Shown here one piece after another: positions 17,178 to 20,140 of a stretch of 20,652 nucleotides of DNA. Numbering within the stretch: position 1 is the stretch's first letter; every line of letters begins with the position of its first letter. Location of the stretch: positions 1-20,652 of IMG/VR virus record IMGVR_UViG_3300042516_004210, one strand, 5' to 3'. Both the position numbers and the translations under genes were made by a program. Below the pieces are notes generated by a model that did not search any database, was not told the DNA's origin, and saw only the letters and a program-made list of their open reading frames with translations. The stretch is from a virus.

Positions 17178-17933
17178 TTATATTTTTACAAAACCGTTTT
17201 CGTAATATTCATTATATGTATTATAATATACTCGTTTTAAAACTTTAATTACTTTAGTTATTTGAAAAGTATCAACATCTATCATTTCACGAATGTAGAT
17301 ATAAATTGCTTTTTTATTAAAAATTTCTAAATTTTCTCGTTTACGAAATAATTCTAAGATAACATCTGCTGTTTTTTGATCTTGAATTCGAGGAAATAAT
17401 TTTTCAAGATGTGTATCAACATATAAAACAAAATAATCAATAAAATCATTTATTAAATTTTTATCATCGTTTGATTCACGAACTAAATCTTCAACAATAA
17501 TTTTATCTTCATCTGCTTCTTCTAATGTTCCTTTTTCTTTAACTTTTTTATAATTTTTTTCATTATAAATAATTAAATAACGTTTAGCAATAGTTCCAAA
17601 ATAAGAAAATGCTTTACCTTTAGTTGGATTATATAAATGTAGTTTTTCAAGTAAAAAAGAAACTACTTCATGTTTTAACTCATTAATAGTATCAACATCA
17701 GTATAATAAAATTTAAATGTATGAATAATATTTTCTGCTAGTTTATGAAAAGCATAATCAATTTTTTCATCAAAAATACGATTACGAAACATTTGATCTT
17801 TAGAAGCTAAATAAGCTATAATTGCATCCTCAGTTTCTTGAGTAAAATATATATTTGATTTTTTAGGTTTACGTTTACGAAGAGTGCCCTTCTTAGTGAA
17901 GAGCACTTCTTCAGTCGTTTCGACTGTAATCAT
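17178..17933 (-). CDS. Late-transcription sigma factor (T4 gp55-like)
   Basis: 251 aa, longer than T4 gp55 (185 aa). A basic N-terminus (KKGTLRKRKPKK, 14-25) is followed by IYFTQETEDAIIAYL (28-42), then a long helical region. The region-2-like segment is VVSFLLEKLHLYNPTKGKAF (90-109) and SYFGTIAKRYLIIYNEKNY (110-128), the part of gp55-type factors that binds RNA polymerase and the promoter -10 box. The C-terminal part (AIYIYIREMIDVDTFQITKV, 209-228) looks like a helix-turn-helix. It would direct host RNA polymerase to late promoters and stands immediately ahead of the late tail genes. The first 17 codons are unlike the rest of the gene in codon use and fold into two hairpins. The gene starts 1 nt after the membrane-protein stop. 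Confidence 0.82.
   Translation of the reverse strand: MITVETTEEVLFTKKGTLRKRKPKKSNIYFTQETEDAIIAYLASKDQMFRNRIFDEKIDYAFHKLAENIIHTFKFYYTDVDTINELKHEVVSFLLEKLHLYNPTKGKAFSYFGTIAKRYLIIYNEKNYKKVKEKGTLEEADEDKIIVEDLVRESNDDKNLINDFIDYFVLYVDTHLEKLFPRIQDQKTADVILELFRKRENLEIFNKKAIYIYIREMIDVDTFQITKVIKVLKRVYYNTYNEYYENGFVKI
17883..17926 (-). promoter_or_regulatory. Two strong consecutive hairpins at the start of the sigma-factor coding sequence
   Basis: On the minus strand, counting the A of ATG as +1, hairpin 1 is CAGTCG-AAA-CGACTG (+8 to +22, perfect 6-bp stem). Hairpin 2 is AGTGCTCTTC-ACTAA-GAAGGGCACT (+27 to +51, 10-bp stem with one G-T wobble). In this stretch 8 of the 16 codons after ATG end in G or C, against 1 of the next 20. 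This suggests that the nucleic-acid structure itself is selected, for example to limit translation of the late sigma factor. Confidence 0.55.
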
Positions 17934-17934
17934 A

Positions 17935-18219
17935 TTAATTATTTCGTGTTTTAAAAGAATTTAATTGATTTTGAATTTCTTGTAAGGTTTCAAAAAAGAA
18001 ACCAATTTCATCATCTGCTTTAAAAGCTTGAGCAACTTCAGATTCTTTTATTTTTTTATTTGATAATTCAATTAACTCAGAAATATTAGTAATATATTGA
18101 TTTTGTTGGTCAACTATTTTTTCTAATCGTTCTGTTTTTGAAAATAAATTATAACAAGCATAAATAGCTGCTATAAGTAATGTTGCAATAATATATAATA
18201 AAATATCCATATTATTCAA
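17935..18219 (-). CDS. Small single-span membrane protein with cytoplasmic coiled coil
   Basis: 94 aa. Residues about 4-25 (MDILLYIIATLLIAAIYACY) form one N-terminal transmembrane helix without a clear cleavage site. A coiled-coil stretch (TERLEKIVDQQNQYITNISE, about 29-48, continuing to 60) and a conserved-looking segment, KADDEIGFFFETLQEIQNQL, follow. It probably sits in the inner membrane with the coil in the cytoplasm. Its start overlaps the HD gene by 8 nt and its stop is 1 nt from the sigma start, so all three are co-expressed. Function is unknown; no holin-like second span is present. Confidence 0.65.
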   Translation of the reverse strand: MNNMDILLYIIATLLIAAIYACYNLFSKTERLEKIVDQQNQYITNISELIELSNKKIKESEVAQAFKADDEIGFFFETLQEIQNQLNSFKTRNN

Positions 18220-18988
18220 AAAATGTATCCATTATATTCTTTAAATTTGCATTAGGAGCAATCGAATCTAATGATATTTGTTTTGGTTTAACGTAAGTTG
18301 ATGTTGATGTTATTAGTTTTGGTTTATCTACAGGAGTTGTATTGAATTTATCTAAATTTTCACGTTCAAACTCAACACGAGCTGCTAATAAATCAGCCTG
18401 ATGTATAATATAAGGTAATGATGTTCTTAATTTAGTTTCTGGAGCCCAAGATATTAAATAAGGTTTATTTGATTCATCATATAAACCATCATGTAATTTA
18501 ATAGCTAAATATTCGTTTTTAGAAATTTCAATACCTAATTGATTTAATAACCATAAGCCACGATCAGGTACAGTCATATAATCTAACTGAGTATTAAATG
18601 TATAAATTTCACCTCTATTCTTAACATGCCATTCAGATGGATTAGGTAAAACAGCTTCATGTTCTAAAGATCCAAATTTACCTAAATCATGGTTTAAAGC
18701 AGAAAATACAACTTCTTCAAGTGTATATGTATCTTTAACTTCAAATTGTCTCCAAATTTTATCTATCTCGATAGAAGCTGATACCACACGGTTAACATGT
18801 TCAATATACCCTCCAGGGAAACAATTGTGATATTGGGGCTTATGTGATGCTGGAAGTAAAATAAAACGTTCTTCATATTTGTTATAAAAATCTAATAAAC
18901 GTTGTTTACGATCACCCGTAATATATGTTTTAATATAATTTAAAAATTGTTCCCAATTGGATAACAATTGTTCTTCGTTTAATGTCAT
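18212..18988 (-). CDS. HD-domain phosphohydrolase with clamp-binding-like C-terminus
   Basis: 258 aa. The metal-binding HD set is visible: H64 in FPGGYIEHVNRVV (57-69), H100-D101 in ALNHDLGKFG, H166 in AIKLHDGLYDE, and H196/D199 in YIIHQADLLAARVEFE. This matches HD hydrolases acting on nucleotides or other phosphate esters; the substrate cannot be read from sequence. After a Thr/Lys/Pro-rich, probably disordered linker (about 213-245) the last residues are KNIMDTFFE (250-258). This resembles a PIP-box (K in place of Q, then M, then FF) or the acidic-hydrophobic tails by which phage proteins bind the sliding clamp. The start is clear (ATG 16 nt after the previous stop). Confidence 0.8.
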   Translation of the reverse strand: MTLNEEQLLSNWEQFLNYIKTYITGDRKQRLLDFYNKYEERFILLPASHKPQYHNCFPGGYIEHVNRVVSASIEIDKIWRQFEVKDTYTLEEVVFSALNHDLGKFGSLEHEAVLPNPSEWHVKNRGEIYTFNTQLDYMTVPDRGLWLLNQLGIEISKNEYLAIKLHDGLYDESNKPYLISWAPETKLRTSLPYIIHQADLLAARVEFERENLDKFNTTPVDKPKLITSTSTYVKPKQISLDSIAPNANLKNIMDTFFE

Positions 18989-19004: not shown

Positions 19005-19196
19005 TTAGTTTCCGTATGTTTCGAACTCGTTATGTTCGATTGAAATTAACGAACGTAATTCTTCTACTTTTTCTTTTAATTCTTCAATTGCTTGAACAGC
19101 TTCATTTTGTTGACCACGCAAAACAAGAAACTCAACGTTTTTAATACGATTATTTACTTGCTCAATTTTATTCAAAGATTGTTCCTTATATCTCAT
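19005..19196 (-). CDS. Small coiled-coil protein
   Basis: 63 aa, helical throughout, in two heptad-like stretches: LNKIEQVNNRIKNVEFLVLR (8-27) and NEAVQAIEELKEKVEELRSL (31-50), then an acidic end. It has no membrane segment. The ATG at 19196 lies 7 nt downstream of a TATAAACATA box. I have seen similar very short coiled-coil proteins beside phage regulatory genes but cannot assign a function. Confidence 0.6.
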   Translation of the reverse strand: MRYKEQSLNKIEQVNNRIKNVEFLVLRGQQNEAVQAIEELKEKVEELRSLISIEHNEFETYGN

Positions 19197-19672: not shown

Positions 19673-20140
19673 CTAGTCGATATCCCCGTCGCTAATACCA
19701 AGTACTTCAAAAATCACGGAACGTACCATATCATAAGGAGCAATAAAACCTTCCGTATTTTCAATACGATATTCTTTTAATTGTTCGAATATTTCTTGTT
19801 CTTTTAAGTATGGTGTTAAACAATAGAAAAAATCTCTTATTTGCCATGGTGTAATCATCCCGGCTGAACGATTAATATCATGTAAACGTTCCGAAATTAA
19901 CCGTTCAGTAAAACCAATTTTAAAAACTCCAGGAAATGAAGTATTTTGAAGAACGTAGATATGCCCGGTAGAATATGGTGATTGACGCTTTCCATATTTA
20001 CGTTTATAATATGTAACATTCCACGCGTTTTCATCGGTTTTTTTAAACGAATATGCATGTGCTGATTTAACGTTTAGACGAATTTGACTTTCATCCATTT
20101 CATAATAATTTGACTTTTCCTTATCTGTTATGTTTTTCAT
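19673..20140 (-). CDS. T5orf172 / GIY-YIG-like nuclease-domain protein
   Basis: 155 aa. Residues 59-145 fit the T5orf172 (Mug113) branch of the GIY-YIG superfamily: GHIYVLQNTSFPGVFKIGFT (59-78) supplies the IYVL and KIGFT strands, R85 lies on the next helix (ERLHDINRS), and an acidic residue in the EQEIFEQL helix (E115/E117) could be the metal ligand. GFIAPYDMV closes the domain. Residues 1-58 are charged and basic and may bind DNA. The family contains stand-alone phage proteins of unclear role. Base and codon use is less AT-biased than in the tail genes. The start at 20140 has the A-rich leader AAATAAAACATT. Nuclease activity is inferred. Confidence 0.78.
   Translation of the reverse strand: MKNITDKEKSNYYEMDESQIRLNVKSAHAYSFKKTDENAWNVTYYKRKYGKRQSPYSTGHIYVLQNTSFPGVFKIGFTERLISERLHDINRSAGMITPWQIRDFFYCLTPYLKEQEIFEQLKEYRIENTEGFIAPYDMVRSVIFEVLGISDGDID

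Follow-up and report, generated by a model that had tools for sequence, protein, structure and literature searches.

The gp55-like gene and its surroundings

The window (the whole stretch of viral DNA that was analysed, 20,652 nucleotides) carries on its minus strand, at 17178..17933, an open reading frame of 251 amino acids, which on the basis of family profile matches and a structural model we assign as a gp55-like phage sigma gene, and whose 5' end holds the two hairpins described below. Comparison of the AF2 model (pLDDT 75) with known structures indicates a sigma region 2-like fold related to gp55: the closest VIA match is T4 gp55 (7d7c_F; Z 9.9, 3.4 Å, 109 residues), and the remaining listed structural matches are almost all sigma factors. 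Foldseek by itself gave no match with E below 0.001 for this model. The window protein matches a PHROG sigma profile weakly (E 0.48) and has no match in Pfam; 14 of the 26 family members match Sigma70_r2 (best 6e-4), two match the late sigma PHROG 234 (best 0.0075), and a PDB sequence search with the family found no match. The gp55-like late-sigma identity suggested in an earlier note, made from the letters of the window, is thus supported by the model and by the Sigma70_r2 matches, and the gene probably gates late phage transcription.

Immediately upstream lies a small gene (17935..18219, minus strand) with a weak Rz-like spanin match (E 0.004). Its stop codon TAA and one further nucleotide precede the sigma ATG (17934..17937, minus strand), with no Shine-Dalgarno (SD) sequence. 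Such a stop-start arrangement, with the ATG one nucleotide after the upstream stop, suggests translational coupling, of which it is typical, and the relatives have an identical or similar junction. An SD-like motif is absent from 18 of 19 starts and most have A at -3, a pattern that agrees with Bacteroidota-type initiation (PMC6847099). Among cultured phages the relatives are Flavobacterium phage immuto (55% identity) and a Microcystis phage; in immuto the gene order is similar, with a phosphohydrolase, a small gene, the sigma-like gene and then baseplate genes. The phosphohydrolase-like neighbour gene (MTLNEEQLL...), found in the window at 18212-18988 (-) and also in the relatives L105, L139, L082 and L108, has in several relatives one of the most structured ORF starts (-10 to -12 kcal/mol).

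Two adjacent hairpins and the codon block

Folding of the mRNA strand of 17933-17883 (51 nt) bears out the two adjacent stems described in the earlier note, one of 6 bp and perfect, the other of 10 bp with one wobble. Hairpin 1, CAGTCG-AAA-CGACTG, occupies mRNA positions +8 to +22 within codons 3-8 (17912..17926, minus strand), and hairpin 2, AGTGCTCTTC-ACTAA-GAAGGGCACT, extends from +27 to +51 (17883..17907, minus strand), overlying the conserved peptide EVLFTKKGT and containing the single G.U pair. Together they have a predicted energy of -21.3 kcal/mol (z -5.54), and none of 200 dinucleotide shuffles is as stable. When a longer segment is folded, an alternative extended stem 2 of 14 bp appears (17879..17912, minus strand), with one bulged A and outer GAAGA/TCTTC pairs, at -24.1 kcal/mol over the first 60 nt; formation of this stem competes with the basal pair of hairpin 1.

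The codon usage of this stretch is equally unusual, and the counts given previously for this AT-rich gene are reproduced: 8 of the 16 codons after the ATG (GTC, ACG, GTG, CTC, TTC, AAG, AAG and GGC) end in G or C, against 1 of the next 20, the background GC3 being 6.4% for the window and 4.3% for the remainder of the sigma gene. The eight G/C third positions coincide with those joined in the four third:third G-C pairs of the stems (mRNA 12-18, 30-48, 33-45 and 36-42), and all four thirds that stay unpaired after the ATG (6, 15, 24 and 39) are A or T, so that the stems and the abnormal codon block are one phenomenon. In stem 2, six of the ten pairs are fixed by first and second codon positions and the other four join third to third. 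Read from the codons, the third positions are set to form two adjacent hairpins against a strong AT bias, with the conserved peptide over stem 2 unaltered. Elsewhere in the window similarly many G/C-ending codons occur only in two other blocks, both near gene ends, at codons about 138-155 of 19673-20140 (-) (8 of 18) and codons about 46-63 of 19005-19196 (-) (7 of 16).

Pairing strength compared with synonymous controls

Could such a structure arise by chance from this peptide and this codon usage? We kept the peptide and drew codons from the usage of the window in 5,000 recodings, none of which reached -21.3 kcal/mol (mean -4.6, sd 2.2, best -13.3); for the 22 nt part with hairpin 1, five of the 5,000 fold equally well. 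The suggested comparison with codon-shuffled controls therefore leaves the structure standing, as the controls are clearly weaker. The 16-codon block has the highest G/C-ending count of 5,940 sixteen-codon windows, and no other 51-nt stretch in the 20.6 kb window is as stable as the first 51 nt of the gene. This gene start is also the most structured of 996 distinct ORF starts, taken from the window and the fetched related loci (mean -3.9 kcal/mol, sd 2.6), with the next at -13.7. Enumeration of all 24,576 synonymous encodings of EVLFTKKGT yielded 24 as good or better for the stem, 16 of them strictly better, and at equal GC3 only 4 of 4,032 encodings are as good in stem strength; the encodings used by the relatives L105 and L108 have ordinary stem strength. 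From these sequence comparisons, selection for pairing in the lineage of the window and contig L001 appears well supported.

Distribution among relatives

In scans of viral contigs for either hairpin, both were found in only two sequences, the window and one contig (L001/L082), which was assembled separately and is 83% identical to the window over the shared 3.5 kb, making an assembly error unlikely. A tree built from the remainder of the gene places the two as sisters (SH-aLRT 97) within a clade of 26, and the nearest outgroups have weaker A-T forms. In L105, L143 and L149, and also in L159, two adjacent hairpins are present but weaker, and their stem 1 is a different one; stem 2 contains mismatches in the commonest, L086-like subgroup. 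Hairpin 1 of L143 and L149, within the first 51 nt of their sigma genes, is CCTC-TACG-GAGG, whose C(UACG)G tetraloop belongs to the extra-stable UNCG class. Stem 1, with its loop, already differs among the closest relatives.

Among 46 distinct sequences with the motif EV[LF][LF]TKKGT[LIV]RKRK, all ten pairs of stem 2 are formed by just two, that of the window and L001 and that of L105, and third:third pairing across the 46 is near chance. As far as it has been sampled, the structure is confined to one lineage of two genomes. Most relatives retain the peptide and have lost the stem, which is what had been named as grounds for abandoning a cis element, and for the family as a whole those grounds hold: this is no conserved riboswitch, a conserved thermosensor or protein operator finds no support, and the hairpins lack the covariation across homologues expected of an Rfam-like riboregulator. 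Family-wide conservation of the hairpins was accordingly rejected, and the search for a known RNA family found no Rfam match at the gathering score, the weak matches being far below it.

Evolution of the block

The block differs from L105, L108, L143 and L149 at 18-20 of 48 sites, compared to about 12-17% in the next 349 nt. Over mRNA 25-51 all of the differences from L105, L108 and L143 are at thirds that pair with each other (30, 33, 36, 42, 45 and 48), and the unpaired thirds are the same as in these relatives. Between the window and L001 there are no changes over 27 codons from the start (P 0.004 under random placement), within an identical run of 88 nt. We do not take this run as sole proof of constraint, since an 89-nt (29-codon) identical run exists elsewhere in the same gene, so that the stasis of the hairpin block is not unique. 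This second run (window 17527-17615) spans codons about 107-135 and covers the conserved KAFSYFGTIAKRYLI motif.

Compensatory changes, which the earlier note proposed to look for among homologues, are seen in modest form in one clade, in contrast to the near-chance pairing across the 46 family sequences. Stem 2 covariation in the clade is 0.159 against 0.096 +/- 0.015 in shuffled alignments (0 of 500 as high), with shuffles that ignore relatedness; it also exceeds slid controls, the nearest of which reaches 0.148 at +2. One pair of stem 2 occurs in the clade as A-U, U-A, G-C and U-G, and two of the three double-changed pairs rest on the lineage of the window and L001 only. Fifteen of 16 distinct clade heads are more structured than codon-matched controls, with a mean z of -2.1, compared to +0.6 in the sister clade. 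However, an internal stretch of the same gene (17664-17717 (-), codons 73-90) has a clade-wide mean z of -2.31, as negative as that of the start. The clade-wide excess is therefore not significant alone; as proof it is weakened, and it can be considered suggestive only. In the window sequence itself this internal stretch folds with only -6.1 kcal/mol.

A possible brake on independent initiation

What would such a structure do at the start of this gene? We propose, with a probability of roughly 0.45, that it is a recent, lineage-specific RNA structure within the opening 17 codons of a sigma cistron that is stop-start-coupled and has no SD, where it dampens independent initiation. A weaker A-T stem 2 would already have existed in the clade and been reinforced on the branch leading to the window and L001. 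The hairpins, from +8 to +51, would form in the mRNA and sit in and just past the footprint of the initiating ribosome. Hairpin 1 (+8 to +22) would fall inside this footprint or at its edge, and hairpin 2 (+27 to +51) a little past it. In this position they may lower independent ribosome loading at the SD-less start, the sigma factor would be made mainly by ribosomes coming from the upstream gene one nucleotide away, and the effect would be to limit or delay late-sigma production. Expression would fall owing to the hairpins, and the arrangement has the look of a local expression control that arose recently, not of an ancient switch. Of the earlier suggestion that a cis RNA element delays or conditions production of the late sigma factor, the part that stands is thus a structure selected in one lineage, to which the window and L001 belong; the part that does not is a thermosensor or protein operator conserved in the family, most homologues having no stems.

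The kind of element can be narrowed further. A thermosensor is not indicated: the prediction gives a single fold throughout the range of 4 to 37 °C, with energies of -35.6 to -21.3 kcal/mol for the hairpin region, and the AUG lies outside the stems, whereas a thermosensor would be expected to have a weak stem that covers the start and opens within the physiological range. A terminator or attenuator was rejected, as there is no T-run and no terminator was found at the hairpins. A promoter scan with the sigma-70 consensus had no match there.

Of known systems the nearest in kind are T4 genes e, soc, 49 and I-TevI, which have inhibitory hairpins at their translation starts (PMC3014915). The likeness is that of an RNA structure at the gene start of a T4-type phage, proposed to limit translation. 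However, the T4 hairpins sequester the SD and/or AUG, while the stems here begin after the AUG, span +8 to +51 in coding sequence and have no SD to cover; and the block in T4 is relieved by a late promoter, while for the sigma gene the sigma-70 consensus scan identified none. Between -20 and +20, RNA structure tunes initiation in Flavobacterium and is depleted (PMC6847099). The same region is concerned here, but what is normally depleted in Flavobacterium and other bacteria is strongly enriched in the sigma gene through near-optimal synonymous choice.

Alternative origins of the hairpins

The alternative that survives best, which we nevertheless consider unlikely, is a mutational by-product: DNA replication would have switched templates between imperfect inverted repeats and so homogenised the arms, leaving a tolerated structure with no function. 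Template switching is known to create and perfect hairpins (PMC8794818, PMC8604942), and near-perfect inverted repeats then appear suddenly in a lineage, as here. EVLFTKKGT already sets six of the ten pairs, a weak quasi-palindrome is present in relatives, and hairpin 1, which is within a fast-changing, unconserved part of the protein, is perfect and would qualify as an exact reverse-complement copy. Stem 2 does not: copying of either arm as one tract would yield VPF or KKST in the peptide and abolish the G.U, and since the G.U is retained between changed thirds, one template-switch tract cannot explain all of the changes in stem 2, which are confined to third positions. Moreover, arm copying alone explains neither the source of the extra G/C nor the later unchanged block.

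We regard as improbable that the structure acts at the DNA level, as a protein operator, a nickase or packaging site or a cruciform that happens to fall in the gene. The stems are inverted repeats and also fold when treated as DNA (-13.5 kcal/mol, z -6.05), but the G.U of stem 2 would be a mismatch in a DNA cruciform, the position is exactly at the gene start, and all of the changes in stem 2 are at third positions. As a repeated operator it was rejected, as no second copy of stem 2 exists in the window at up to 3 mismatches. Just as little probability attaches to import: an unsampled relative whose codon usage is rich in G/C would have donated the segment, which then passed between the lineages of the window and L001. 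Such an import would account for a burst of change limited to the first 17-27 codons followed by identity between otherwise 83%-identical contigs, but a G/C-biased donor is expected to carry G/C also at the unpaired thirds, all of which are A or T, and no donor was found in viral contigs or in genome contigs with the same peptide.

Least probable, in our view, is an operator at which the sigma factor or a host or other protein binds the hairpins and represses translation, as do T4 gp32 and gp43: T4-type phages do use such control at the starts of regulatory genes and the hairpins adjoin the start, but the T4 gene 32 pseudoknot and gene 43 hairpin bind their own product upstream of the start, in the leader or ribosome-binding site (PMC3014915), while the hairpins here are downstream of it, stem 1 and its loop are variable, and RNA binding by a sigma-like protein is only a supposition.

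Implications

Returning to the brake on independent initiation, the reading can be taken a step further, to a version we regard as doubtful. In it, a new control element would have arisen through rewritten synonymous positions and a few unconserved N-terminal residues, and late-sigma production would depend, in an SD-less host, on translation coupled to the upstream gene; it would be an RNA switch born in coding sequence, with a G-U intermediate visible in a relative. If true, a regulatory RNA structure would have been born inside a coding sequence through paired synonymous changes, and at a gene that probably gates late transcription, in phages with SD-less starts, where structure is normally avoided. 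With 60 nt, synonymous variants and known precursors, the locus would also offer a small system for direct tests of how initiation and coupling in Bacteroidota-type translation respond to strong post-start structure.
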